A DNA stretch of 30,141 bases from a virus: IMG/VR virus record IMGVR_UViG_3300032267_000581, positions 1-30,141 of that record; one strand, written 5' to 3'. The notes beneath the pieces were generated by a model. The model was not told the DNA's origin. It ran no database searches and saw nothing but the letters and a program-made list of their open reading frames with translations. Every line of letters begins with the position of its first letter. The first letter of the stretch is position 1. The position numbers and the translations under genes were made by a program. This document shows, piece after piece, positions 3,237 through 29,996 of the stretch.

Positions 3237-3569
3237 ATGATAGTATTAACGCCTTCTACAAGTCCACAAACATTTAGCTTTATTCCACGTGACAATACGT
3301 TTAATGTTATGGAACTAACGGACGAACAAACAAACGTAACAACGCCTGTAGCGATTACTTCAAGGACTGTTGGAGACTACATTTATACAATTACAGCGAC
3401 TTTTGGTTTAGTAGAAGGACATTTTTATAATTTAGTTTTAAGAGTAGGTACAACGATTATATATAAAGACCGAGTATTTTGCACGGCACAATCATTAGTT
3501 ACATTTTCGGTTAACAATAACCAGTACGTTTCTAATTCAACAACAAATGATTTTATAGTATATGAATAA
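3237..3569 (+). CDS. Hypothetical beta-rich structural protein
   Basis: 110 aa, rich in Thr, Val and Asn, predicted to be a single beta sandwich (TSRTVGDYIYTITATFGLVE, then FYNLVLRVG). No known domain is recognised. It is the first gene after a strong terminator and overlaps the portal gene by 8 bp, so the two are likely co-translated. A virion role is inferred from its place. Confidence 0.75.
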   Translation: MIVLTPSTSPQTFSFIPRDNTFNVMELTDEQTNVTTPVAITSRTVGDYIYTITATFGLVEGHFYNLVLRVGTTIIYKDRVFCTAQSLVTFSVNNNQYVSNSTTNDFIVYE

Positions 3570-5319
3570 TTTACACGTTTTAAATTTGTCGGCTTATACG
3601 TCACCTGTTATTTCGGAAACAAACCGAGAAAATTGGGTGGACTTTTTAACTGAAGACGGCGACCAATACTTTCAATTCTTAATTGAGAGATATAGCAATT
3701 CAACAACGAATAACGCTATTATAAACAACGTAGCGCGATTAATATACGGAAAAGGTTTAAGTGCATTGGACGCTAATAAAAAGCCGAATGAGTACGCGCA
3801 AATGATGTCTTTATTTAACAAAGAAGACGTACGAAAAATGGTTCTTGATAGAAAAATGTTTGGACAATTTGCTATTCAAGTACACTACAACGACAAGCAC
3901 GACAAAATATTAAAAGCATATCATATACCGGTTAACCTTTTAAGAGCTGAAAAATGCGACAAAGACGGACAAATAACAGGTTATTACTATTCGGACAATT
4001 GGGACGATACTAAAAAGTTTGCACCAATTAGATTTAACGCTTTTGGTTATAGCAAAGAAAAAATAGAAATACTTTATTCTAAACCTTATTCGGTTGGAAT
4101 GAAATATTATTCCTACAGCGACTATGCAGGTTGTATTCCATATTGTCTTTTAGAAGAAGAAATTGCAGACTATTTAATTAACGAAGTTCAAAACGGATTT
4201 AGTGGAACTAAAGTTGTTAATTTCAATAACGGAATACCAACGGACGAACAGCAAAGTATTATTTCAAATAAAGTTTTAAGCAAGTTAACAGGAAGTCGTG
4301 GACAAAAAGTTATAGTAGCTTTTAACAACAACGCTGAAAGTAAAACAACAGTTGAAGATATTCCGTTAAACGACGCTCCAGAACACTACACATATTTAAG
4401 CGAAGAATGTTTGCGTAAAATAATGTTAGGACACAATATAACTTCACCTTTACTTTTTGGTGTTGCTTCAACAAATGGCTTTTCAAGTAATGCAGACGAA
4501 TTAAAAAATTCAAGTGTACTTTTTGACAATATGGTAATTAGACCATTCCAAGAAGAAATTTTAGACGCTTTTGATAGCATATTAGCATTTAACGGAGTTG
4601 CTTTAAAGTTATTCTTTAAAACGTTACAACCGTTAGAGTTTACGGACTTGGAAAACACGCAAAACGAAGAACAAGTTGCAGAAGAAACAGGAACAGAATT
4701 AAGCGCACATACAAATCCTTTAATTGATTTAGGCGAAGAACCACAAGACAATTGGTTATTAATAGACGAAAAAGAAGTTGATTACGAAAATGACGATAAA
4801 GAAAACGAATTATTAAGTAAAGAGCCAAAACAAAGTTTGTTGTCTAAAATTGTAAACTTGGTAAGTACAGGTTCAGCGTTTCCAAATAGCAAAAGTCAAC
4901 AAGACGAACTAATAGACGGAGTTAAATTTTTTACACGTTATAAATACGTAGGCGAAGTAACTAAAAATAGACGTGAATTTTGTACACAAATGGTTTTAGC
5001 TAACAAGATTTATAGAAAAGAAGACATTTTAAGAATGGAAACACAAGTTGTTAACGCAGGTTGGGGGCCAAAAGGTGCTGACACTTATTCAATTTGGTTG
5101 TATAAAGGTGGTGGAAATTGTCACCACAGATGGAACAAGCAAGTTTACGCAAGTTTTGAAGGAACTAACATTGATATAAACAGTCCACGAGCGCGACAAA
5201 TTGCAGGGCAAAAGGCAGAAAAATACGGATATGTAATTAACAACCCAAAGTTAGTAAGTACACGTCCAATTGATATGCCTAACAAAGGGTTTTTACCTAC
5301 AAATAAAAAAGAGAATTAA
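3562..5319 (+). CDS. Portal protein with MuF-like C-terminal domain
   Basis: 585 aa. Residues 1 to about 360 look like a phage portal: an early WVDFLTEDG segment, the clip and wing region, and the helix around DAPEHYTYLSEECLRKIMLG followed by a Ser/Asn-rich loop and RPFQEEILDAFD. Residues about 365-425 are an acidic linker. Residues about 450-560 form a second domain with R..FC (F473, C474), KIYRKEDI, WGPKGADTYSIW and NCHHRW (519-524). That layout is the one seen at the end of MuF-type minor head proteins. The protein thus seems to combine portal and minor-head functions; no separate MuF gene is visible. It overlaps both neighbours (8 bp and 1 bp). Confidence 0.8.
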   Translation: MNNLHVLNLSAYTSPVISETNRENWVDFLTEDGDQYFQFLIERYSNSTTNNAIINNVARLIYGKGLSALDANKKPNEYAQMMSLFNKEDVRKMVLDRKMFGQFAIQVHYNDKHDKILKAYHIPVNLLRAEKCDKDGQITGYYYSDNWDDTKKFAPIRFNAFGYSKEKIEILYSKPYSVGMKYYSYSDYAGCIPYCLLEEEIADYLINEVQNGFSGTKVVNFNNGIPTDEQQSIISNKVLSKLTGSRGQKVIVAFNNNAESKTTVEDIPLNDAPEHYTYLSEECLRKIMLGHNITSPLLFGVASTNGFSSNADELKNSSVLFDNMVIRPFQEEILDAFDSILAFNGVALKLFFKTLQPLEFTDLENTQNEEQVAEETGTELSAHTNPLIDLGEEPQDNWLLIDEKEVDYENDDKENELLSKEPKQSLLSKIVNLVSTGSAFPNSKSQQDELIDGVKFFTRYKYVGEVTKNRREFCTQMVLANKIYRKEDILRMETQVVNAGWGPKGADTYSIWLYKGGGNCHHRWNKQVYASFEGTNIDINSPRARQIAGQKAEKYGYVINNPKLVSTRPIDMPNKGFLPTNKKEN

Positions 5320-9024: not shown

Positions 9025-10062
9025 ATGGCAAATAACAGCGCAAGGTTTCGACTAAAACAGGACGAAATCGAAATACTTATGCAGTATCGTGGCATCAAAA
9101 ATGCAACGGATGAAGCTGGAGTAGATGACAAAGATGTAAAGCACGGATGGCTAAAAACAAAACAAGCAAGTTTATTTTTTAAGAACCCAAACTTTAAACA
9201 GGAAGAACTAAACGAGATACAAAGAATAAAAGACGAATGTATAAAAGAAGTAAAGTTATACGCTCCGAAATATCACGCAATAGAAACAATAAAAAGCGAA
9301 GACACGCATTTACTTGTAATTGATATTGCAGACTTACATATCGGAAAACTTGCAACAGCATTTGAAACAGGCGAAGACTATAATTCACAGATAGCCGTTA
9401 AACGTGCAAAAGAAGGACTACAAGGCATTTTAAACAAAGCTAAAGGGTTTAACATAGACAAAGTATTATTTGTTGCAGGAAACGACATTTTACACACCGA
9501 TAACACAAGGCGAACTACAACAGGTGGAACACCACAAGACACGGATGGAATGTGGTACGACAATTTTATAATGGCAAAGAACCTTTATATTGATTTGTTA
9601 GAAAAATTATTAAGTTTTGCAGAAGTCGAAGTTGTTTACAATCCGTCAAACCACGATTTAACGCACGGTTTCTTTTTGATGCAGTTAATAGAAGCGCACT
9701 TCAGTAAGTCCACAATTAATTTTAACGTAGATTTAAAACATCGTAAGGCATTTAAGTACGGAAACAACTTAATAGGAACAACACACGGAGACGGAGCGAA
9801 AATCGAACACTTACCGTTATTGTTAGCAACGGAATTTCCAATACTTTGGAGCGAAACTAAACACCGATATATTTATTCGCACCATATACACCATAAAACA
9901 AGTAAAGATTTTATAGGAGTAACATTTGAAACGTTACGCAGTCCTTCAGGAAGTGATAGTTGGCATCATAAAAACGGATATACAGGCGTTCCGAAAGCGG
10001 TTGAAGGTTACATACATCACAAAGAATTTGGACAAATTGCAAGATTAACGCATATTTTTTAG
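9025..10062 (+). CDS. Calcineurin-like metallophosphoesterase
   Basis: 345 aa. The metal-binding motifs of the superfamily are in order: D-L-H at 103-105 (DLHIG), AGND at 151-154, SNHD at 208-211, THGD at 253-256 and SHHIHH at 285-290. The N-terminal 90 residues are helical and specific to the phage form. It could be an SbcD/Mre11-like nuclease or a phosphatase; there is no SbcC-like partner gene. It lies at the end of the late unit, 6 bp after the spanin-like gene and just before a terminator. Confidence 0.85.
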   Translation: MANNSARFRLKQDEIEILMQYRGIKNATDEAGVDDKDVKHGWLKTKQASLFFKNPNFKQEELNEIQRIKDECIKEVKLYAPKYHAIETIKSEDTHLLVIDIADLHIGKLATAFETGEDYNSQIAVKRAKEGLQGILNKAKGFNIDKVLFVAGNDILHTDNTRRTTTGGTPQDTDGMWYDNFIMAKNLYIDLLEKLLSFAEVEVVYNPSNHDLTHGFFLMQLIEAHFSKSTINFNVDLKHRKAFKYGNNLIGTTHGDGAKIEHLPLLLATEFPILWSETKHRYIYSHHIHHKTSKDFIGVTFETLRSPSGSDSWHHKNGYTGVPKAVEGYIHHKEFGQIARLTHIF

Positions 10063-10090
10063 TTTGATTAAATAATTTATATTATATTTG
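10063..10090 (+). promoter_or_regulatory. Possible Bacteroidota-type promoter directly before a terminator
   Basis: TTTG at 10063-10066 and TATATTTG at 10083-10090 match the Bacteroidota -33/-7 elements, but the spacer is only 16 nt. A transcript from here would meet the hairpin at 10113 within a few tens of bases. Confidence 0.35.
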
Positions 10091-10112
10091 TCATTCATAG
10101 TTAAAAAAAAAG

Positions 10113-10153
10113 AAAACAGTTGTAAGCTCCCCAGCACGCAGCTGTTTTTTTTT
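10113..10153 (+). terminator. Terminator closing the late transcription unit
   Basis: A 10-bp stem joins AAAACAGTTG (10113-10122) and CAGCTGTTTT (10139-10148), with one G-U pair, and is followed by T to 10153. The A run before the stem would give a T run on the other strand, so it may work in both directions. Confidence 0.85.
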
Positions 10154-10155
10154 GT

Positions 10156-10196
10156 GACAATAAACGGTTTAATTCCGATTAATTGTCCCGTTTTTT
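10156..10196 (+). terminator. Possible second terminator in tandem
   Basis: GACAAT (10156-10161) pairs with ATTGTC (10182-10187) around CGG/CCG, or alternatively AACGG pairs with CCGTT, and the structure is followed by six T. The stem is imperfect, so this is less certain than the hairpin just upstream. Confidence 0.45.
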
Positions 10197-10408
10197 ACGA
10201 AATAAATTGGACTTTTTATGGTTATAACCTTAATAATAGCAAAGATTTTAAGGGTTTTACCTTTACTCTAATACATTATTAAGTAAAATTTACCTTAATT
10301 ATATGTTTTACTTATTTAAAATGAATATAAATTACACTTTTTTCTATTCAGAAAACGTAATAAACACAAGGATTTTAAAAATAAATTAAAAATAATTGTT
10401 AAAAAGTA
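10197..10408. other. Non-coding region with palindromes, possible operator or origin
   Basis: I see no credible gene between 10063 and 10466. Besides the terminators and promoters listed separately, it holds the perfect palindrome GGTTATAACC (10220-10229). It also holds a 9-bp inverted repeat TAAGTAAAA/TTTTACTTA (10280-10288 and 10306-10314) and repeated ACCTTAAT-type words near 10227 and 10293. Composition is very AT-rich. The region lies just upstream of the early promoter. Operator or replication-origin function is inference. Confidence 0.4.
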
Positions 10409-10438
10409 TTGCAGTTATTAAAATAAGTATTAGATTTG
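10409..10438 (+). promoter_or_regulatory. Early promoter, Bacteroidota sigma-A type
   Basis: TTG (10409-10411), a 19-nt spacer and TAGATTTG (10431-10438) fit the TTG-N19-TAnnTTTG consensus exactly. The first gene starts 29 bp later, at 10467. The initially transcribed bases GCATATAATTATTAAC nearly repeat those after the promoter at 15738. Confidence 0.8.
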
Positions 10439-10466
10439 CATATAATTATTAACGAAAACAAATATT

Positions 10467-10631
10467 ATGAAAACAGAATTTAACAAAGTAATTGATTTCT
10501 TGGAAACACAACAACAGGAAGACAAACTAAACACGAACCAACTGCATTTAATCATCCAGACTTTAGCAACATTTTTAGACGATGAACAATTGCAGGAAGT
10601 AGAAAATTTATTTAACCAATTTAAAAAATAA
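10467..10631 (+). CDS. Small acidic early protein, unknown function
   Basis: 54 aa, MKTEFNKVIDFLETQQQEDK at the N-terminus, predicted helical throughout, acidic and Gln-rich. It is the first gene after the early promoter. There is no recognised family. First genes of early phage operons often target host functions, but nothing in this sequence identifies a partner. Confidence 0.65.
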   Translation: MKTEFNKVIDFLETQQQEDKLNTNQLHLIIQTLATFLDDEQLQEVENLFNQFKK

Positions 10632-10635
10632 GACT

Positions 10636-10773
10636 ATGAAAAATTTAATTGATTACTTTACACCAACAACCGAAGAACACAAATCGTTTTTAAGGCACTT
10701 TTTAAGCACTCTAACGATGTTTATAGTGCTGGGTGGTATGTTCTATTGTTTAATGTATTTAAAAGCGCTGTAA
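10636..10773 (+). CDS. Small single-pass membrane protein
   Basis: 45 aa. A polar N-terminal half is followed by one hydrophobic helix, about residues 23-42 (LSTLTMFIVLGGMFYCLMYL). It starts 4 bp after the previous stop and ends 1 bp before the next ATG. The function is unknown. An early membrane protein could act in superinfection exclusion or membrane remodelling; this is speculative. Confidence 0.6.
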   Translation: MKNLIDYFTPTTEEHKSFLRHFLSTLTMFIVLGGMFYCLMYLKAL

Positions 10774-10774
10774 G

Positions 10775-11107
10775 ATGGAAAATAGAAATTTAGAATTTTG
10801 GAATAAAGGGTGGGAATTAACCTACGAGTTTTTAGGTTGGACTTATTCAATAGCAGGAACTTGGGAATTTAACGATTACGATGAAGTTAGTGAATATGCG
10901 TTTATTGAACTTGACGTTGAAATTTCGCAGAAGTGGGAAACAGAAACAGATGACAATTTACAACCGCACGTTCTTGGGGTTCGTATTTTAGAAGATTTAC
11001 GTTTAGAAATGCAGGAAGCAATAAACAGCGATTTAGCACACTACAACTTTTGGGAATGGAAAACAAGCAATGACGATAGTAACTACACTTTTTACCACGA
11101 ACTATGA
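10775..11107 (+). CDS. Hypothetical early protein, Trp/Glu-rich
   Basis: 110 aa, acidic and rich in Trp (ELTYEFLGWTYSIAGTWEFN). It looks like a small mixed alpha/beta fold. I do not recognise a family. It overlaps the next gene by 4 bp (ATGA), within the early operon. Confidence 0.7.
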   Translation: MENRNLEFWNKGWELTYEFLGWTYSIAGTWEFNDYDEVSEYAFIELDVEISQKWETETDDNLQPHVLGVRILEDLRLEMQEAINSDLAHYNFWEWKTSNDDSNYTFYHEL

Positions 11108-13920: not shown

Positions 13921-14211
13921 ATGGAACTTGACTTATTGAGCAGTAGAATAAACTTAAACCACACTTGTTTAAAATTACAAGTAAGCATTGAAGACATAAA
14001 AACGAAACACCCTAACCGAACCGACTTAATAACTTCAATGGAACAAAGTTTATATGAAATTAAAAAAGCAATGGTTGTTTACCAAACGTTAGAAAAAGAG
14101 TTTAGAGCGACAAGACAAATTAACTTTGATTTACAACACATAAATTTAGAATTAAAACAGGATGTAAAAGACTTAAAAAAAATAATAGAATTTAACAACG
14201 CAGAACTATGA
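13921..14211 (+). CDS. Hypothetical coiled-coil protein
   Basis: 96 aa, almost all predicted helix, with a heptad-like C-terminal half (INFDLQHINLELKQDVKDLK). The start follows a 12-bp gap and the stop overlaps the methyltransferase ATG by 4 bp. No family is recognised. Codons are of the C-ending type, unlike the helicase gene before it. Confidence 0.75.
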   Translation: MELDLLSSRINLNHTCLKLQVSIEDIKTKHPNRTDLITSMEQSLYEIKKAMVVYQTLEKEFRATRQINFDLQHINLELKQDVKDLKKIIEFNNAEL

Positions 14212-14873
14212 AAGTATTAAATTTATATGCTTGTTTAGGCGGTAACCGTTACAAATGGGATGAAGTGGCAAATATTGAAGTAACCGCAGTAGAACTTGAC
14301 CCTGAAGCTGCACGACTTTACAAAGAAAGATTTCCAAACGACACGGTAATTGTAGCAGACGCACACCAATATTTATTAGACCATTTTAAAGAATTCGATT
14401 TTATTTGGAGTTCTCCACCTTGTCCAAGTCACAGCAAAGTAAGAATAAGCCAAAAAAATAGAGAAGCTTTTAAATTTATTTACCCAGATATGAAATTATA
14501 TGAAGAAGTTATTTTTTTAGATAATTTTTTTGAAGGTAAATATGTGGTTGAAAATGTAACACCTTATTATGAGCCATTGATACCTGCAAAAAAAAGAGGT
14601 AGACATTTGTATTGGACAAATTTTAATTTACCAAATGATTTAAAAGAAAGAAAATTAGATGGTACTTTAACTAATATGGTTGATGAAATAGGAACATTAT
14701 CTAAATTTCATAATTACGATTTTAGAAAGTACAAAGGCGAACAAAGCACTACTAAAATGGCTCGTAATTTAGTAGACTATGAAGCAGGTAAAACAATACT
14801 TGAAACTGCATTAGGAATAATTAAAAAATCAAATACTAACCAAACATCAATTTTTGATTATGAAAACGATTAA
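14208..14873 (+). CDS. DNA (cytosine-5) methyltransferase, short phage form
   Basis: 221 aa. Motif I-like LYACLGGNRY is at 6-15. Acidic SAM-binding residues follow in VELD (28-31) and VADA (49-52). The catalytic motif IV is SSPPCPS with C72. Motif VI is ENV (115-117). GRHLYWTNF and the C-terminal YEAGKTILETALG resemble later motifs. At 221 aa it is shorter than standard Dcm enzymes, so the target-recognition region is reduced. It could protect phage DNA from restriction. Codon style changes at about 14440, from AAC/GAC/CAC to AAT/GAT/CAT, suggesting a recombinant gene. Confidence 0.8.
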   Translation: MKVLNLYACLGGNRYKWDEVANIEVTAVELDPEAARLYKERFPNDTVIVADAHQYLLDHFKEFDFIWSSPPCPSHSKVRISQKNREAFKFIYPDMKLYEEVIFLDNFFEGKYVVENVTPYYEPLIPAKKRGRHLYWTNFNLPNDLKERKLDGTLTNMVDEIGTLSKFHNYDFRKYKGEQSTTKMARNLVDYEAGKTILETALGIIKKSNTNQTSIFDYEND

Positions 14874-18230: not shown

Positions 18231-18770
18231 TTGGAATGGTTAACTAAAGTTGCAAAACATCACAAAGAATGGGTTAAAATGGTTAACACTTTTGGCGAAT
18301 ATTTTTTTGCTGAAGACATAGTACAGGAAACTTACATAATGTTAATGAAGTGGAGCAGCGAAGAAAAACTATTTAAAGACGGAAACATAAGTAAAGGTTA
18401 TATGTGGTTAGCTTTAAAAAACACTTTCCTTCAGCACGTGAACAAAAACAACAAAATCAAATTTATACCTTTAGACGATGTATACAATTTAGCAGAAGAA
18501 AACAACACAGAAGAAAACGAAGCTTACAACGACCTGTTAAATAATGTAGATTTAGAGTGTGATAGTTGGCATTGGTACGACAAACAATTATTTGAGTTAT
18601 ACAAAAACACGAATAAAAGTTTAAGACAAATAAGTGCAGAAACAAACATAAGTGTAACAAGTATATTTAACACGGTTAAAACTTGTAAAAAACGAATTAA
18701 AAATAACGTAGGTGAAGACTACCAAGATTTTATAAATAAAGATTACGAACTAATAAAAAAGAAAAAATGA
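18231..18770 (+). CDS. RNA polymerase sigma factor-like protein (ECF-like)
   Basis: 179 aa. Residues about 1-60 resemble sigma region 2 (FGEYFFAEDIVQETYIMLMK). Residues about 115-160 resemble region 4, with an HTH in KSLRQISAETNISVTSIFNT followed by KTCKKRIK. The start is TTG at 18231; the first ATG in frame is at residue 17 and would remove part of region 2. It begins a transcription unit that leads into terminase and tail genes, so it may direct late transcription; a trigger for its own expression is not visible beyond the host-type promoter. Confidence 0.75.
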   Translation: MEWLTKVAKHHKEWVKMVNTFGEYFFAEDIVQETYIMLMKWSSEEKLFKDGNISKGYMWLALKNTFLQHVNKNNKIKFIPLDDVYNLAEENNTEENEAYNDLLNNVDLECDSWHWYDKQLFELYKNTNKSLRQISAETNISVTSIFNTVKTCKKRIKNNVGEDYQDFINKDYELIKKKK

Positions 18771-19150
18771 AAAGTAAAGGATTAGGCGATACAATCGCAA
18801 AAATTACAGAAGCAACAGGAATTGATAAACTTGTTAAATTTATTGCAGGTGAAGACTGCGGATGTGATGAGAGAAAAGAAAAGTTGAATAAACTATTTCC
18901 GTATGCAAAACCGTTGTGTTTAACAGAAGACGAGTTCAACACGTTAGACACTTATTTTAAACAAAACACGAACACACTAACAAGCGATGAACAAACAAGT
19001 CTAATAGCAATTAACAACAGAGTACTAAACCAAAAATTAACTTTCAGCACCTGTTCAAGTTGTCTGCGAGATTTAGTAAGTAAGTTAAGAGTAATTTACA
19101 ACGAGTACAGTCCAGAACAAACAGAAGAAAATGCAAGTAGCGAAAGTTAA
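18767..19150 (+). CDS. Cys-containing hypothetical protein
   Basis: 127 aa. It opens with GLGDTIAKITEATGIDKLVK and CGC at 31-33, then C51 and a CSSC pair at 96-99. The four or five Cys could bind zinc. Similar proteins with a CGC..R..LN..FPY pattern are found near terminase genes of Bacteroidota phages (from memory). It overlaps the sigma gene by 4 bp and the ParB-methyltransferase by 20 bp. Confidence 0.75.
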   Translation: MKSKGLGDTIAKITEATGIDKLVKFIAGEDCGCDERKEKLNKLFPYAKPLCLTEDEFNTLDTYFKQNTNTLTSDEQTSLIAINNRVLNQKLTFSTCSSCLRDLVSKLRVIYNEYSPEQTEENASSES

Positions 19151-20309
19151 AATTAACAGCATAAAGACGAACCCAAAAAACCCACGTTTAATAAAAGACG
19201 ACAAGTTTAAAAAGTTAGTCAATTCAATTAAGGAATTTCCACAAATGTTAGAACTACGACCAATTGTAGTAGATGAAAACAATATAATTCTGGGTGGAAA
19301 TATGCGACACAAAGCTTGTATTGAAGCAGGGTTAAAAGAAGTTTATATTGTACAAGCAAAAGATTTAACTGAGCAACAAAAAGACGAATTTATAGTTAAA
19401 GACAACGTAGGGTTTGGAGAATGGGATTGGGATATTTTAGCGAATGAATGGGACACCGAAAAATTACAAGATTGGGGTTTAGACTTGCCGTTAGACGTAA
19501 GCGTTCAGGAATTAGAAGCTGAAGAAGACAATTACGAAATACCAAACGAAATAAATACCGATATTGTTTTAGGCGACTTATTCGAGATAGGCGAACACCG
19601 TTTACTTTGTGGGGATAGTACGGATAGCGATTTAATAGAAAAGTTATTAAACGGACAAAAAGCGGATTTAGTTTTCACCGACCCGCCTTATAAAATTGAA
19701 ACTGAAGGTGGATGTAAGGGAATAACGGGTCAAGCATTAAAAAAACAAGGCAAACAAATTGAATTTATATCGGACTTTGAACCAATTAACTTTTTAAACG
19801 TTTTGCCTATTTTATTTGAAAATAAAAAAATGAATGCTTATATTTTTTGCAATAAGGATTTATTGCCAGATTATTTATTTTGGGCTAAAGAAACGGGATA
19901 TTCATTTAATGTTTTAATTTGGAAAAAGCCAAACGCAATTCCGATTGGGGATTCTCACAGACCCGATATTGAATATTTACTGTTATTTAGAAAATCCGCA
20001 ATTTGGAATAATAGTTTAAAAGATGTTAATTATTCAAGGTGTTTGGAATACGGACGGGAAAGCGGATTACACCCAACAATGAAACCAATTGAATTAATTG
20101 CAAATGAAATGCAAATAAGTTCAAATAAAAATAGTTTAGTTTTTGATTTCTTTTTAGGAAGCGGAAGTACAATGGTAGCTTCACACCAATTAAAACGCAA
20201 ATGTTACGGAATGGAATTAGACCCGAAATATTGTCAAGTAATAATTGACCGAATGAAAAAGTTAGACCCAAGTTTAGAAATTAAACGCAACGGAGAAATA
20301 TTAAATTAA
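19131..20309 (+). CDS. ParB-like nuclease domain fused to N6/N4 DNA methyltransferase
   Basis: 392 aa. Residues 1-90 are a ParB/Srx-type domain (SIKTNPKNPRLIKDDKF, RPIVVDENNIILGGNMRH). Residues about 145-375 are a beta-class amino-methyltransferase, with motif IV TDPPY (183-187) before motif I FDFFLGSGS (338-346). HPTMKP is at 314-319. This fusion is common in phages. It may protect phage DNA from host restriction. The region between DPPY and motif I (about 19690-20150), expected to hold target recognition, has more AT-ending codons than the flanks, as if exchanged. Confidence 0.9.
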   Translation: MQVAKVKINSIKTNPKNPRLIKDDKFKKLVNSIKEFPQMLELRPIVVDENNIILGGNMRHKACIEAGLKEVYIVQAKDLTEQQKDEFIVKDNVGFGEWDWDILANEWDTEKLQDWGLDLPLDVSVQELEAEEDNYEIPNEINTDIVLGDLFEIGEHRLLCGDSTDSDLIEKLLNGQKADLVFTDPPYKIETEGGCKGITGQALKKQGKQIEFISDFEPINFLNVLPILFENKKMNAYIFCNKDLLPDYLFWAKETGYSFNVLIWKKPNAIPIGDSHRPDIEYLLLFRKSAIWNNSLKDVNYSRCLEYGRESGLHPTMKPIELIANEMQISSNKNSLVFDFFLGSGSTMVASHQLKRKCYGMELDPKYCQVIIDRMKKLDPSLEIKRNGEILN

Positions 20310-20327: not shown

Positions 20328-20657
20328 ATGCCAAACGAAGAAAATTTAAAAAAGTTTAGTGCGGAATACCAACCCGAAAAAAACGGACGACCGAAAGGAA
20401 GTAGAAACCGAAGCACAATAGCACGTCTTTGGTTAGAAACAACACAAAAGGCAAAGAACCCAATAACAGGCGTTGAAGAAACTTTGTCGCAAGAAGACTT
20501 GGGAACTTTAGCAATGGTTAAAAAAATGCGCGACGGAGATGTTTCAGCATACAAAGCACTTATGGATAGTGGCTACGGTGCGCCTGTTCAACAAATAGAA
20601 CAAACAAATATAGAACAACCTTTATTTCCTGATGTTAATACGGACGACTGCAATTAG
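20328..20657 (+). CDS. Terminase small subunit-like protein
   Basis: 109 aa. A basic N-terminus, YQPEKNGRPKGSRNRSTIAR (14-33), has the GRPKGSRN pattern of DUF5681-type proteins that precede terminase large subunits. A helical middle (LGTLAMVKKMRDGDVSAYKA) follows. It overlaps the large-subunit gene by 26 bp. A role in DNA recognition for packaging is inferred from place and basic motif. Confidence 0.7.
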   Translation: MPNEENLKKFSAEYQPEKNGRPKGSRNRSTIARLWLETTQKAKNPITGVEETLSQEDLGTLAMVKKMRDGDVSAYKALMDSGYGAPVQQIEQTNIEQPLFPDVNTDDCN

Positions 20658-21792
20658 TAAAATTGCTAAGTTAGACAAGCGAATAAAAATAATTCAAGGC
20701 GGTACTTCAGCGGGTAAAACTTTTGGCGTTATTCCTTTATTAATTGACATAGCGACAAAGCACAAAAACACGGAAATAAGTATTGTTGCAGAAAGCATAC
20801 CACACTTACGTAGGGGCGCGTTAAAAGACTTTGTTAAAATAATGCGTTGGAGTAACAGGTTCTTTGAAGACAAGTTTAATAAATCATTATTAAGGTACGA
20901 ATTTTCAAACGGTTCTTACATTGAATTTTTTAGCGCAGACGATAGTTCAAAATTAAGGGGTGCAAGACGCGATATTCTTTACATAAACGAATGTAACAAT
21001 GTAACATTTGAAAGTTACAACGAACTTGCAATACGTACAAAAAAACGAATATACCTTGACTTTAACCCAGCGAATGAATTTTGGGTACATACGGAACTAA
21101 AAGACGAACCCGACACAGACTTTTTAATTTTAACGTACAAGGACAACGAAGCACTTGATGAACGAATAGTAACGGAAATTGAAAAGAACCGCTTAAAAGC
21201 CACGACAAGCAGTTATTGGGCTAATTGGTGGCGGGTATATGGCGAAGGACTTGTTGGAATGTTAGAAGGAGTTATATTTTCAAACTACAAACTAATTGAC
21301 ACCATACCGCCTGAAGCACGTTTACTTGGTTATGGTTTAGACTTTGGGTATTCAAACGACCCGACAAGCATAGTTGAAGTTTACAATTACAACGGGCAAA
21401 GAATACTAAATGAAATATGTTATCAAACAAGTTTATTAAATAACGACATAGCGAAGAAACTACAAAAACACGTAATAGCATACGCAGATAGTTCAGAGCC
21501 AAAAAGCATTGAAGAAATACGAAGAACAGGACAACAAATAAAAGGAGTAACAAAGGGCGCAGATAGTGTAAACTACGGAATACAAATAATGCAGTCGCAA
21601 AATTATTTAGTTACTTCACAAAGCACAAACCTAATTAAAGAATTAAGGGCGTACTGTTGGGACGCTGATAAGTCTGGAAAAACATTAAACAAACCGCAGG
21701 GCAAAAACGACCACGCAATAGACGCTGTACGTTATCACGAAATGGAAACTTTAGGGTTAAACAATACACACGGGCAATATTTTATAAGATGA
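20632..21792 (+). CDS. Terminase large subunit
   Basis: 386 aa. The ATPase domain has Walker A GGTSAGKT (23-30) and Walker B ILYINE (115-120). The RNase H-like nuclease domain has acidic residues in GLDFGYSNDPT (D237), YADSSEP (D286) and NDHAIDAVRYHE (D360, D364), the Terminase_3 pattern. It powers DNA packaging and cuts the concatemer. The ATG lies inside the small-subunit gene. A more precise packaging strategy cannot be read from this sequence. Confidence 0.92.
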   Translation: MLIRTTAISKIAKLDKRIKIIQGGTSAGKTFGVIPLLIDIATKHKNTEISIVAESIPHLRRGALKDFVKIMRWSNRFFEDKFNKSLLRYEFSNGSYIEFFSADDSSKLRGARRDILYINECNNVTFESYNELAIRTKKRIYLDFNPANEFWVHTELKDEPDTDFLILTYKDNEALDERIVTEIEKNRLKATTSSYWANWWRVYGEGLVGMLEGVIFSNYKLIDTIPPEARLLGYGLDFGYSNDPTSIVEVYNYNGQRILNEICYQTSLLNNDIAKKLQKHVIAYADSSEPKSIEEIRRTGQQIKGVTKGADSVNYGIQIMQSQNYLVTSQSTNLIKELRAYCWDADKSGKTLNKPQGKNDHAIDAVRYHEMETLGLNNTHGQYFIR

Positions 21793-21963: not shown

Positions 21964-22716
21964 ATGAAGTTAGAAATAAACGTACCAACAACTTTAAGTG
22001 AAATTCCATTAAAAAGCTATCAAGAATTTTTAAAGGTTCAACAGGGAAGCAATGACGAAGAATTTATAGCGCAAAAAATGGTTCAAATATTCTGCGGAAT
22101 AGAACTAAAGGACATAGTCAGAATGAAGTTGACAAGTTTAAACGAATTAATATTACACTTTAAAAACCTATTCGAACAAAAGCCAAAATTTCAACCAACG
22201 TTTAAAATAGGCACACAAGAATTTGGATTTATTACTAACCTTGAAGAAATAAGTTTTGGCGAATACGTAGACTTGGAAAACAATTTACTGAAGTGGGAAG
22301 ACTACCATAAGGCAATGGCTGTGATGTACAGACCAATAAAGATGAAATTCAAAGATAAGTACGAAATAGTTGACTATACGCCAATGGAAGAAATGCACGA
22401 GTTAATGAAGTTCACGCCTGTTGATATAGCGATTAGTTCAAGTGTTTTTTTTTGGAATTTAGGAAGCGAATTATTGACAGCTACGCTTACTTATTTGGAA
22501 CGGCAGATAAAGACGAACAAGAAGACGGAAACGAGTTTAGCGAACAAGCTCAATTTGGAAAACAATGGGGTTGGTATCAATCAATTTATGCACTCGCTCA
22601 AGGAGACATTACAAGATTTGACACAGTCACCGGATATAGACTTACTCAATGTCTCACCTATCTTACCTTCGAAAAGCAAAAGCAAGAAATTGAACAACGC
22701 CAACTTAATAAACTAA
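21964..22716 (+). CDS. Putative tail assembly chaperone, unshifted product
   Basis: 250 aa. The N-terminal part (about 1-160: PTTLSEIPLKSYQEFLKVQQ, GFITNLEEISFGEYVDLENN, HKAMAVMYRPI) is a type common in Bacteroidota phages and here opens the tail-gene cluster. After codon 161 the gene crosses nine T. In the normal frame it continues with FFWNLGSELLTATLTYLERQ and ends in NQFMHSLKETLQDL plus a Ser/Lys tail. The -1 frame over the same DNA also looks coding, as for tail chaperones such as lambda gpG/gpGT. The chaperone role is inferred from this arrangement and from position; no direct homology is claimed. Confidence 0.75.
   Translation: MKLEINVPTTLSEIPLKSYQEFLKVQQGSNDEEFIAQKMVQIFCGIELKDIVRMKLTSLNELILHFKNLFEQKPKFQPTFKIGTQEFGFITNLEEISFGEYVDLENNLLKWEDYHKAMAVMYRPIKMKFKDKYEIVDYTPMEEMHELMKFTPVDIAISSSVFFWNLGSELLTATLTYLERQIKTNKKTETSLANKLNLENNGVGINQFMHSLKETLQDLTQSPDIDLLNVSPILPSKSKSKKLNNANLIN
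22445..22453 (+). promoter_or_regulatory. Slippery T9 run, likely -1 frameshift site
   Basis: Frame 0 reads GTT TTT TTT TGG here, giving a T-TTT-TTT heptamer of the X-XXY-YYZ type. The -1 frame is closed by a TAG at 22434-22436 and open from 22437 to 22724, so slippage must occur in this short interval if the -1 frame is used. Stimulatory structure was not identified by eye. Confidence 0.65.
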
Positions 22717-22724
22717 AAAGATGA
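22452..22724 (+). CDS. -1 frame extension of the tail assembly chaperone (gpGT-like)
   Basis: This frame has no ATG start at its 5' end; it begins at the slippery run, so the natural product is a fusion of codons 1-163 of the gene at 21964 with these 90 codons, about 253 aa. The -1 part reads DSYAYLFGTADKDEQEDGNE, then FGKQWGWYQSIYALAQGDIT and CLTYLTFEKQKQEIEQ, a clearly protein-like sequence. I remember conserved WGWY..I..LA.GD-type domains in tail genes. The stop overlaps the next gene's ATG (ATGA), while the frame 0 stop is 4 bp before it, which supports real translation of this frame. Confidence 0.7.
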   Translation: MEFRKRIIDSYAYLFGTADKDEQEDGNEFSEQAQFGKQWGWYQSIYALAQGDITRFDTVTGYRLTQCLTYLTFEKQKQEIEQRQLNKLKR

Positions 22725-23176
22725 CAGGATATTACAACTTATTAGACAAACTAAAAACACACTTTGACGCTGACGTTATTGTAAACACGGTTACACAAGG
22801 AGACATATTTAAAGTTGATTTAAGCAAACAAACAATATTTCCTTTATTACATATAATGGTAAACAGCTGCACGTTAGACGAACGCACAACAACTTGGAAT
22901 ATTAGTTTAATAGCAATGGATGTTGTAGATATTTCAAAGAACGCAACAACAAATATTTTTTTAGGTAACGACAACGAAATAGATGTATTGAATACTCAAC
23001 ACGCAGTATTAAATAGGGCATACGAAATAATAAAACACGGAAGTTTAGCATACGATTTATTTATGGTTGAAGGAACTGCAAATTTAGAACCATTTACAGA
23101 ACGGTTTGAAAATTATATGGCAGGTTGGACTATGACTTTTGACGTAGTAACACCGAACGAAATGACTATTTGTTAA
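22721..23176 (+). CDS. Tail completion or terminator-like protein
   Basis: 151 aa, alpha/beta (YNLLDKLKTHFDADVIVNTV, IFPLLHIMVNSCTLDERTTT, then a strand WTMTFDVVTPNE). Size and place after the chaperone fit a tail terminator-type protein. I see no decisive motif. It overlaps the -1 frame stop by 4 bp. Confidence 0.55.
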   Translation: MTGYYNLLDKLKTHFDADVIVNTVTQGDIFKVDLSKQTIFPLLHIMVNSCTLDERTTTWNISLIAMDVVDISKNATTNIFLGNDNEIDVLNTQHAVLNRAYEIIKHGSLAYDLFMVEGTANLEPFTERFENYMAGWTMTFDVVTPNEMTIC

Positions 23177-27174: not shown

Positions 27175-27338
27175 TAAACAAAATAATTGAAATGCTTTTA
27201 TTAAGTGATTTTTACGGAGAAAGTGAAAACATAGACATAGCAAAGGGTAAATATAAATTTACTACTTCCATAAAAGAACAATGGAAACAAGCACAACGCA
27301 AAAGGTTAATAGAGAAAAAAATAAAGAATAATGGCTGA
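27171..27338 (+). CDS. Small basic protein before the tape measure
   Basis: 55 aa, MINKIIEMLLLSDFYGESEN at the N-terminus, with a very basic end (QAQRKRLIEKKIKNNG). It overlaps the previous stop by 4 bp and the tape measure start by 8 bp. The tight coupling suggests a stoichiometric or assembly role; the function is unknown. Confidence 0.6.
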   Translation: MINKIIEMLLLSDFYGESENIDIAKGKYKFTTSIKEQWKQAQRKRLIEKKIKNNG

Positions 27339-29373
27339 AAAAAAAGTAATTGAATTAGAAGTAAATTCTAATTTAGGCAATTTAAAACAACAACTTAAAC
27401 AAGCACAAGTTGAAGTTCAAACGTTGGCGGAAAAGTTCGGAGCAACTTCAGCACAAGCAGTTGAAGCTGCAAAGAAAGCAGCTATTCTTAAAGACAAAAT
27501 AAGTGACGCAAAAGCGTTAACTGATGCGTTTAACCCAGACGCAAAGTTTAAAGCGTTAAGCGGTGCGCTAACAGGTGTTGCAGGTGGTTTTTCTGTTGTT
27601 ACAGGAGCAATGGCTGCGTTTGGAAAACAAAACGAAGACGTAGAAAAAGCTTTGTTAAAAGTTCAAGGAGCAATGGCTTTGGCTTCAGGCGCACAAGCAA
27701 TCGGTGAAAGCATTGATAGTTTTAAACAACTTGGAGCGGTATTAAAAGCAAATACTATTGTTCAAAGAATAATGACTGCGGCTCAATATGCTTATAATTT
27801 AGCAATGTCGTTAAATCCTATTGGAGCAATTATAGCGGCTACTATTGCTTTAATAGCGGCTGGTTACGGTTTAATAAAAATGTTTCAAGCAAGTACAGAA
27901 GCAACGGTAAAAAACGAATCAGCAGTTAAAAAAAATGATGCAGCTTTAAAGCAACAAATAAAAACAAGTGAACGTGCAAGTGAAGCATTAAAAACAAAAA
28001 ACGGACACGAATACGAAATGGCTAAAGCTTCCGGTGCAAGTACAAAAGCATTAAGAGCGTTGGCATTAAAACACGCAGAAGAAGAAATTGCACTTAACAA
28101 AGCAAGTTTAGCAACTGCAAAAAATACATATGAGAAAAACAAGAATACGTTAGCAAGTTTAATTAATTCAGGCGCAAGTGATGAGTTAATTGAAAAGCAA
28201 AGAGAAATAACAATTGAATCACGAAAAGCGTCCGCAGAAGAACGAAAAGATTTAGAAGAAGCAATTAAAAATAAAAAAGATATTGTAAGGAAAAACCAAG
28301 TTGAAGTTAGACAAGAATTAACCGACAATAATAATAAATCAAAAGAATCAAATAAAGCGCACAACGAAGCAATTAAACAACAAAACGAAGAAGCAGCAAA
28401 AGCTGAAAAAGACCGTATTAAAACACTAAATGAAAACATACTTTCTTTAAACGAAGAAATACGAGTTAGCAAATTAACGGATGAACAAAAGGAAGTTGAC
28501 GCAATAGATAAAAAATATACTAAACTAATTGAAGATGGAAAAAAATCTAAAATTGATGTTGCGTTATTAGAAGAAGAAAAGCGTTTAGCTTTAGCTGGAA
28601 TAACAAAAAAATATGACGATTTAGAACAAGTAGCAAAAGACGAAAAGATTGCAAAAGAAAAAGAAAAGATTGCAACTGAAAAAGCGGTTTTACAAGAACT
28701 AACATTAAGCGAAAACGAATTAAAACTTGCTAAACTTACAGAACAATATGCTGCCGACCAACTTTTATACAAGGACAATAAAGAAATTTTAAAGGCACTT
28801 GACATAAAATATGCAAAGGATAAAGAAGATTTAGATAAAGAAGAACTTGCAAAAAAACAAGCTACTTTACAACAACAATTAGATTTAGTAAAAGGAAGTT
28901 TTCAAGCGTTTGCAGACGTAGCAACTTTGTTTGCAGGTAAAAACAAGAAGGCACAAAAAACTGCGTTTAATATTCAAAAAGCTGCAAATATTGCTTCCGC
29001 AACAATAGACACTTATACAGCGGCAACAGCGGCATTTAAGTCAGCCGCTGGAATACCTGTTGTTGGTGCTGTTCTTGCGCCAATAGCCGCAGCAGGTGCT
29101 GTTGCAGCAGGTTTAATGAACATTAAAAAAATTGCCGCTTCAAAGTTTGAAGGTGGTGAAACACCAAGCGCAAGTGGTGGTGGTGGTGGTGGTGGCGGTG
29201 CAACAGCTCCAACAATGAGCGCACCACAATTTAACGTTGTAGGACAAAGTGGAGTTAATCAGTTAGCAAGTTTAAACCAACAACCAATACAAGCTTATGT
29301 AGTTTCAGGACAAGTAACATCACAACAAGCGTTAGATAGAAACAGGTTAGCAAACGCAACTTTAGGCGGTTAG
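27331..29373 (+). CDS. Tape measure protein
   Basis: 680 aa. The N-terminal 70 residues are coiled coil (LGNLKQQLKQAQVEVQTLAE). Hydrophobic segments lie at about 73-100, 153-182 (LNPIGAIIAATIALIAAGYG) and 571-600. Between about 195 and 510 is a long Lys/Glu/Ala coiled coil. A Gly run near residue 615 precedes a C-terminal tail. This layout and its location among tail genes identify a tape measure. By the usual rule of about 1.5 angstrom per residue, the tail would be near 100 nm. The antisense frame of 306 codons is a shadow. Confidence 0.85.
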   Translation: MAEKKVIELEVNSNLGNLKQQLKQAQVEVQTLAEKFGATSAQAVEAAKKAAILKDKISDAKALTDAFNPDAKFKALSGALTGVAGGFSVVTGAMAAFGKQNEDVEKALLKVQGAMALASGAQAIGESIDSFKQLGAVLKANTIVQRIMTAAQYAYNLAMSLNPIGAIIAATIALIAAGYGLIKMFQASTEATVKNESAVKKNDAALKQQIKTSERASEALKTKNGHEYEMAKASGASTKALRALALKHAEEEIALNKASLATAKNTYEKNKNTLASLINSGASDELIEKQREITIESRKASAEERKDLEEAIKNKKDIVRKNQVEVRQELTDNNNKSKESNKAHNEAIKQQNEEAAKAEKDRIKTLNENILSLNEEIRVSKLTDEQKEVDAIDKKYTKLIEDGKKSKIDVALLEEEKRLALAGITKKYDDLEQVAKDEKIAKEKEKIATEKAVLQELTLSENELKLAKLTEQYAADQLLYKDNKEILKALDIKYAKDKEDLDKEELAKKQATLQQQLDLVKGSFQAFADVATLFAGKNKKAQKTAFNIQKAANIASATIDTYTAATAAFKSAAGIPVVGAVLAPIAAAGAVAAGLMNIKKIAASKFEGGETPSASGGGGGGGGATAPTMSAPQFNVVGQSGVNQLASLNQQPIQAYVVSGQVTSQQALDRNRLANATLGG

Positions 29374-29411: not shown

Positions 29412-29996
29412 ATGCGAATAGTCGAATTAATAATTGACGAAAAAGACGAAACAAGCGGAATAGACGCAGTTTCAGTTGTTGAAAGTCCTGCAATAGAAAG
29501 CGACTTTATAGCACTTAAAAAACACGAAATAGAGTTAAAAGAAGTAGACGCTGAAAAGCGTATATTAATGGGTGCGGCTTTAATTCCTAACAAACAAATT
29601 TACCGCAAGAACGACAAGAACGAAGAATATTACATTTACTTTAGCGAAGAAACGGTACGCAAAGCAAGTGAATTGTTTTTTATGAATTCAAACCAGAACA
29701 ACGCAACTTTAGAACACAAACAAAAGTTAGATGGAATGTCGGTTGTCGAAAGTTGGATAGTTGAAGGTTCGCACGACAAAAGTATGAATTATGGTTTTAA
29801 CTTTCCAAAAGGTACTTGGGTTATTTCTATGAAAGTAAACAACGATGAAATTTGGAACAAAGTAAAACTTGGTGAAGTAAAAGGATTTTCTATTGAAGGT
29901 TATTTTGCAGACAAATACGAAATGAGTTTAATTAACGAAGATGAAATTTTAATAGATAAAATAAAACAAATAATAACGGAAAATGAAAACAACTAA
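29412..29996 (+). CDS. XkdF-like prohead serine protease
   Basis: 194 aa. It begins with VELIIDEKDETSGIDAVSVV and SPAIESDF. A candidate catalytic His is H102 in ATLEHKQKLDG and a candidate Ser is S160 in VKGFSIEGYF, the arrangement of XkdF-type phage proteases. The middle, ILMGAALIPNKQIYRKND, is also typical. It would process the scaffold and capsid proteins encoded after the window join. Its stop overlaps the next gene's start by 14 bp. Confidence 0.8.
   Translation: MRIVELIIDEKDETSGIDAVSVVESPAIESDFIALKKHEIELKEVDAEKRILMGAALIPNKQIYRKNDKNEEYYIYFSEETVRKASELFFMNSNQNNATLEHKQKLDGMSVVESWIVEGSHDKSMNYGFNFPKGTWVISMKVNNDEIWNKVKLGEVKGFSIEGYFADKYEMSLINEDEILIDKIKQIITENENN

Follow-up and report, generated by a model that had tools for sequence, protein, structure and literature searches.

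A gene directly downstream of the terminase in a tailed-phage contig appears to yield two products through a change of reading frame at a run of nine T, and the DNA behind this run would be truly coding in both frames. In our reading, to which we assign a probability of about 0.6, it is a two-product gene, likely for a tail assembly chaperone, operated by RNA-polymerase slippage on T9. Most expression would lead to a 250-aa protein in frame 0. A fraction would switch at the run of at least nine T into the −1 frame, yielding a fusion protein in which a conserved helical domain follows the same N-terminal part, while the same approximately 270 nt read in frame 0 would provide a second, probably younger, selected C-terminal tail. 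The switch would most likely be the work of RNA polymerase, which would slip on T9 and give mRNAs with an extra U, and not of the ribosome. The occurrence of slippage, the machine responsible and the product ratio are what we infer from the sequences.

Gene layout

The window, i.e. the whole stretch of 30,141 bases that was analyzed, is a contig from a virus record with genes for terminase large subunit, portal and tape measure. The terminase large subunit gene (20632–21792, plus strand; Pfam Terminase_3 and Terminase_3C) is the upstream neighbor of the two-frame gene, the portal gene is located at 3562–5319 of the same contig, and the gene for the tail length tape measure protein (27331–29373, plus strand; PHROGs 9483 and 1538, E about 4.5e-12) follows downstream. 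A Bacteroidota host is likely for this phage, since its terminase is nearest to those of Flavobacterium psychrophilum phages (54% identity). RNA families and tRNAs were not found in the window.

The frame-0 ORF (21964–22716, plus strand) begins with an ATG at 21964, ends with the stop TAA at 22714–22716 and encodes the shorter, unshifted product of 250 aa. It matches PHROG 32199 with E=1.3e-11. The N-terminal part common to both products comprises about 160 codons (21964–22444, plus strand), in which alignments revealed the conserved motifs GFIPN, GEYxDL and YRP. The slip site follows at 22445–22453 (plus strand), where frame 0 reads ...AGT GTT TTT TTT TGG AAT TTA GGA.... From 22452 on, the −1 frame reads TTG GAA TTT AGG... 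up to the stop TGA at 22722–22724, which overlaps the ATG (22721–22723) of the next gene (22721–23176, plus strand; 151 aa, PHROG 30964, function unknown). This −1 frame encodes the C-terminal domain of 90 codons (22452–22724, plus strand), predicted to be helical (AlphaFold2, mean pLDDT 81.7) and bearing a W-G-W-Y motif; fused to the N-terminal part, it forms the C-terminal end of the shifted product. Over this domain runs the C-terminal tail of frame 0 (22453–22713, plus strand), a dual-coding stretch according to stop avoidance, constraint and structural model. Direct reading confirmed the coordinates of the T9 run, both frames, both stops and the overlap with the next ATG as given in an initial annotation of this DNA. 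In the long-overlap class, the overlap of the −1 stop with the next ATG is kept by 78 of the 83 relatives scored, a set for which 300 nt downstream were also required. The third (+1) frame is closed just past the run by a TAG read directly at 22460–22462, and it stays open for only 2.0–2.8 codons on average in each of three tail classes. This TAG is no evidence on its own, since it is forced by the Leu-Gly/Phe-Arg pair in the two used frames.

Several other genes of the contig deserve mention. Upstream of the terminase, a sigma-factor-like gene (18231–18770; PHROG 1740, E=1.3e-6) may drive late transcription; a gene noted with sigma-70 region 2 is found in a similar place in Nonlabens phage P12024S. 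At 19131–20309 a ParB-type N-terminal domain is fused with an N6/N4 DNA methyltransferase (Pfam). The cytosine methyltransferase-like protein encoded at 14208–14873 may be reduced or diverged; its similarity to the Pfam family (positions 1–81 of 324) is confined to the first 82 residues. Near opposite ends of the contig, the genes at 29412–29996 and 956–1537 match the first (5–171) and the last (205–339) part of PHROG 24921, respectively, and the first of them also matches head maturation proteases. The two halves of this PHROG suggest a split protease/scaffold and a circularly permuted contig.

Conservation of the T run

Samples picked by the T run cannot show its conservation; two run-independent samples were taken instead. 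With the N-terminal motif 80 loci were kept, 7 of them on contigs that end before or in the site, and all 73 loci reaching the site carry 9–11 T, in codon phases 0, 1 and 2. With the Nonlabens protein as query 63 loci were kept, and T9 or T10 occurred in 62/62 after setting aside one unaligned locus. Pooled, at least nine T were found in 135/135 loci and 7 or 8 T in none, where many of the loci are related and some lie on contigs that are also part of the pattern set described below. A complete −1 frame of at least 65 codons is present in 130 of the 135, the other five being cut by the contig end. The position of the run across homologues, which the initial annotation had proposed as a check, is thus conserved, and homologues lacking the run or the −1 frame, which would have counted against it, did not appear in these samples. 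Its T-TTT-TTT heptamer is indeed present in phase, but conservation concerns the length of the run, nine T or more in any phase, and not the heptamer.

A protein search of IMG/VR with the window protein gave 483 relatives; among the best 80 of these by protein similarity (identity at least 82.8%) all carry T9. Locus L007, on a contig starting inside the gene, has both frames (87 and 90 codons). Wherever the first codon is Leu in the 135 run-independent loci, it is CTT (25/25); in nearby codon usage, CTT accounts for 15% of Leu codons and TTT for 71% of Phe codons. A codon table of 316 loci and the zero run changes seen in 83 sequences are uninformative on conservation, as these loci were picked by T≥9.

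Shorter and interrupted runs were searched for in the whole collection. A scan for T8 with the family flank resulted in 35 matches, one of them in the family (L379). Its upstream frame aligns with neither of the used frames, and we take L379 not for a working T8 variant but for a dead copy or an error by base loss. The scan for TTC ahead of the conserved flank yielded at least 120 matches, with 86 in-register family members among the matches listed. All 86 carry T10 followed by C, i.e. an extra Phe codon with the run staying long, which rules out a T_TTT_TTC heptamer alone for these members.

Long T runs are rare elsewhere in these contigs: in 1154 other mechanically called ORFs, T9 was seen 2 times vs. 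24.9 expected and T8 14 times vs. 44.2. T7 runs gave no clean signal by phase (0.18, 1.06 and 0.74). Runs of A10 or longer occurred 5 times in the ORFs of related contigs vs. 49.5 expected, so that both T and A runs are strongly depleted. This depletion inside genes is possibly a sign of slippage cost in the hosts; mutational instability could be an alternative cause for the avoidance of long T runs.

Dual coding downstream of the run

That frame 0 stays open far beyond the run was first compared with random recoding, in which the −1 protein is kept, its codons are drawn with local codon usage and the open length of frame 0 is scored. In the window frame 0 is open for 87 codons vs. a mean of 14.2 after synonymous recoding, and none of 500 recoded sequences reached 87. 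Over 218 sequences the open length is 64.7 codons vs. 10.9 expected. Stop ratios were determined for 109 representatives with less than 80% nucleotide identity in three tail classes. Frame-0 stops in the tail occur at 0.17 of expectation in the long class (12 representatives), at 0.60 for tails of 52–67 codons (73 representatives) and at 1.03, i.e. without avoidance, for tails of 16–45 codons (24 representatives). Using the codon usage from after the frame-0 stop, the ratios are 0.14, 0.49 and 0.84, respectively. Once frame 0 has ended, stops are no longer avoided in the two shorter classes (ratios of 1.14 and 1.23). Of 15 control ratios, 12 of them from the upstream part and the next gene (both other frames, three classes) and the rest from the third frame within the tail, 14 range between 0.89 and 1.16; the sole outlier, 0.70, stems from the −1 frame of the next gene in the long class with 10 sequences.

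Substitutions point in the same direction. On a tree of 83 long-class sequences, −1 wobble sites within the overlap changed 4.2 times each, as against 10.8 times for wobble sites upstream and 10.2 times for those of the next gene. The ratio of the wobble rate in the overlap to that upstream is 0.35 (0.28–0.43; 100 sequences), which bears out the synonymous-site constraint that the initial annotation had suggested looking for. Classes of changes were then counted in 106 sequences with tails of at least 79 codons, applying the same context filter to both regions; the figures are read as effect sizes since the pairs are not independent. Transitions that are silent in the −1 frame but alter frame 0 reach 0.0566 vs. 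0.1605 for silent ones upstream, and those altering both frames 0.0047 vs. 0.0212 for those altering −1 only. Transversions agree, with 0.0116 vs. 0.1130 for the silent classes and 0.0050 vs. 0.0194 for both frames vs. −1 only. In the window's clade, −1-silent changes altering frame 0 thus occur at about 0.1–0.35 of the silent rate just upstream. Tails of 50–70 codons show the same direction (0.0547 vs. 0.1509; 0.0184 vs. 0.0249). Counting against dual coding in the shorter tails is the pair test for tails of 60–69 codons, with 0.0723 for both altered vs. 0.0872 for −1 only. Comparison of the −1 wobble before and after the frame-0 stop resulted in 0.68 (0.53–0.86) for the 54–56 codon class and 0.72 (0.53–0.93) for tails below 45 codons. 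In the 61–63 and 64–68 classes it is not clearly slower, with 0.92 each (0.71–1.24 and 0.65–1.32).

The conserved run, the stop avoidance and the lowered rate of −1-silent changes altering frame 0 show purifying selection on both C-terminal ends and support true dual coding, most strongly in the long-overlap class. The claim of the initial annotation that both C-terminal frames are real over about 270 bases is borne out by stop avoidance and by constraint in both. The −1 frame, whose lack of constraint would have spoken against it, is the more constrained of the two. Long and nearly co-terminal ends, also part of that claim, hold for the window's clade but not for its relatives, where frame-0 tails have 16–67 codons.

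Family and history of the two ends

The gene belongs to a large group of Bacteroidota phages, mostly uncultured and mostly known from environmental DNA. The only cultured relatives found are the Nonlabens phages P12024S and P12024L (26% identity in the N-terminal part). Searching the genome collection with the window protein gave no homologues, and the −1 protein alone had no matches among phage records; two divergent members found none there besides Nonlabens. A 19-base pattern, T9-HNN-ATTTAGG, matched at least 120 stretches in the collection. Among the matches listed, 117 of 120 fit the N-terminal profile, and 116 of these also the profile of the −1 domain. In viral contigs the pattern is near-unique for this phage group, even though in the window itself the run is followed by G. 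It could be used to count these phages in raw metagenome reads.

Frame-0 tails range from 16 to 88 codons across the family, and the window's clade has the longest. A tree of 76 representatives, with midpoint root and bootstrap not fully settled, places the seven members with tails of at least 79 codons in one group (97/89), which adjoins members with tails of 62–63 codons; short tails (below 50) need only two changes. The −1 domain is present in every run-independent locus that is long enough and also in Nonlabens with its short frame-0 tail. For this reason the −1 domain is probably the older one, and the frame-0 tail would be overprinted and growing, a direction that depends on the root of the tree. 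In the structural model of the frame-0 protein, a long helix extends across the slip (153–197), followed by a second helix (204–220) and a low-confidence end (221–250), so that the tail consists of a helix and a Ser/Lys-rich end of low confidence. Modeled alone, the −1 domain is helical and mostly confident. With hundreds of sequences, tails of 16 to 88 codons represent a graded natural series of overprinting, in which one can trace on the tree how a dual-coding stretch arises and becomes fixed.

Mechanism and function

Could the frame-0 tail be a passive shadow of the −1 domain, open by chance or for the arrival of ribosomes at the next gene? Its conserved motifs, such as GVGINQFMHSLKETL, mirror the W.WY of the −1 frame as a shadow of WGWYQSIYALAQGDI, and in the window frame 0 stops just 4 nt short of the next ATG. 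The likeness of motifs means nothing alone, since it is an exact shadow of the −1 W-G-W-Y, and the recoding and substitution tests reject a mere shadow: both the open length over 218 sequences and the transitions in the long class speak against it. Coupling to the next gene cannot explain the 50–70 class, because frame 0 ends about 60–95 nt before the −1 stop in the members inspected. We consider this explanation highly improbable. Even harder to credit is that the −1 domain is translated from a start of its own as a free-standing, unfused protein, as which it is annotated in the record of Nonlabens phage P12024S (hypothetical protein gp39). An ATG before the W.WY motif is absent in 85 of 96 representatives, and ATG, GTG and TTG are all absent there in 67 of the 96; moreover, a free-standing gene would give no sense to the constraint on the run.

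More weight has to be given to the possibility that the same products and the same dual coding arise by −1 ribosomal frameshifting on U_UUU_UUU through re-pairing of tRNA-Phe, with overlapping heptamers, a mode known from lambda and from many dsDNA phages. Every run of nine or more T contains an in-frame T_TTT_TTT, conforming to X_XXY_YYZ in phase at the window, and ribosomal −1 shifts are described for the tail chaperones of many phages (PMC5009743). However, the heptamer needs just seven T, yet none of the 135 run-independent loci has 7 or 8, and T_TTT_TTC alone was never seen, the TTC members among the matches listed all having T10C. In E. coli, U_UUU_UUU is described as prompting little ribosomal shifting, less than A_AAA_AAG (PMC5009743). 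Stimulators were not detected at the run either: pseudoknot-free downstream structure gave mean z of −0.40, −0.08 and −0.01 in three windows, and an SD-like motif was found in 4/97 only. We regard a ribosomal switch as possible, with less than even odds. The conservation of a homopolymer of at least nine T whatever the codon phase is a feature of transcriptional slippage. According to PMC5009743, 9 A or T are a tract on which the RNA polymerase of bacteria slips efficiently in vivo, and the RNA–DNA hybrid has 9–10 bp. An upstream hairpin stimulating polymerase slippage gave no clear signal (mean z −0.14 to −0.45). Because the minimum of nine matches the reported slipping length and the hybrid, because the length of the run is kept across phases and the T10C detour, and because no downstream structure or SD-like element was seen, the comparison favors slippage of RNA polymerase, which we hold to be at least as likely as a ribosomal shift on the heptamer. 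Whether phages set chaperone ratios by polymerase rather than ribosomal slippage is now testable. That this large, mostly uncultured group of Bacteroidota phages forms both of its tail-chaperone-like proteins by polymerase slippage on T≥9, while the unshifted frame grows stepwise into a second selected C-terminus over the entire shifted domain, appears to us an even bet; if true, overprinting has brought the window's clade to almost full dual coding.

With regard to function, the gene behaves like a frameshifted tail chaperone, an identity that we infer by analogy with lambda gpG/gpGT and do not extend to membership of that group. As in chaperone pairs, there are two ORFs, the second in the −1 frame with no start of its own and the slip site at the junction. 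The usual place of such pairs, flanked by the genes for the major tail protein and the tape measure protein, is not the one seen here; the two-frame gene comes after the terminase and a short stretch, and some 4.6 kb with four other genes separate it from the tape measure gene downstream on the same strand. The position directly after the terminase would also suit a recoded dual-coding gene of another kind, e.g. for a head-tail connector or another structural helper, and PHROGs splits the two halves into families of unknown function, 32199 (matched by 21/21 members of a diverse N-terminal alignment) and 38404 (10/23 members). The two-product −1 architecture, an N-terminal part of mostly 155–175 aa and the tape measure gene downstream argue against such a function, as do weak matches to tail proteins and chaperones: PHROG 166 'tail protein' was matched by 5/21 members (best 2.1e-4), and an annotated tail assembly chaperone appeared as structural match at rank 45 (E 0.25, probability 0.66). 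A role other than tail assembly chaperone is thus unlikely in our view. Pfam gave no meaningful match for the two-frame gene, Foldseek against PDB no match at E≤0.001, and the VIA second look at the fold yielded Z of at most 2.8.

A further structural match of the frame-0 model, in Flavobacterium phage 6H (region 10060–10927, minus strand), was tied to gp10 by its length of 191 aa. Upstream of that phage's tape measure gene, gp10 precedes a long open stretch that is unannotated and read in another frame; no slip site could be placed for gp10 and the following frame.

Comparison with known systems

Frameshifted tail genes are already known, as is slippage on nine A or T in bacterial genes. In phage P2, a −1 frameshift at a T-rich site extends the tail gene product gpE to gpE+E', and the downstream frame overlaps; there the shift is ribosomal and the overlap shorter than in the window gene. 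Similar to lambda gpG/gpGT, where the minority product carries the −1 extension and serves in tail morphogenesis (PMC5009743), the window gene has a common N-terminal part and gains a C-terminal domain by a −1 change. No sequence relation to the lambda G/GT chaperones was found. In contrast to lambda, the unshifted product of the window continues over another 87 codons and spans almost all of the −1 domain, and the site of the family is a run of at least nine T without detected stimulator. Unlike here, an end shortly past the slip is usual for the unshifted protein of annotated phage tail chaperones; the distance from the slip to the in-frame stop is given as 26 nt on average for annotated SEA-PHAGES cases and as 169 nt for a mixed viral set (PMC10885494).

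The closest cultured counterpart is gp38/gp39 of Nonlabens phage P12024S, with a homologous N-terminal part, T9 in the same place and a homologous −1 domain. Its frame 0 ends 25 codons past the slip, and the record lists two hypothetical proteins and no frameshift. Polymerase slippage leading to two products is described for Thermus thermophilus dnaX, with a run of 9, and Shigella spa13/mxiE (PMC5009743). Compared to these, the window gene is a phage gene in a morphogenesis region with both frames selected over about 270 nt, its slippage being predicted from the run. The frameshifts of PMC8008677 concern a reverse transcriptase. Titles and abstracts of the open-licence literature contain no description of this gene family, of a tail chaperone using transcriptional slippage or of a nearly full-length dual-coding overlap of this kind. 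What is new compared to the known systems is the long, selected and nearly co-terminal double reading in such a gene, with the tract of at least nine T as the only signal found.
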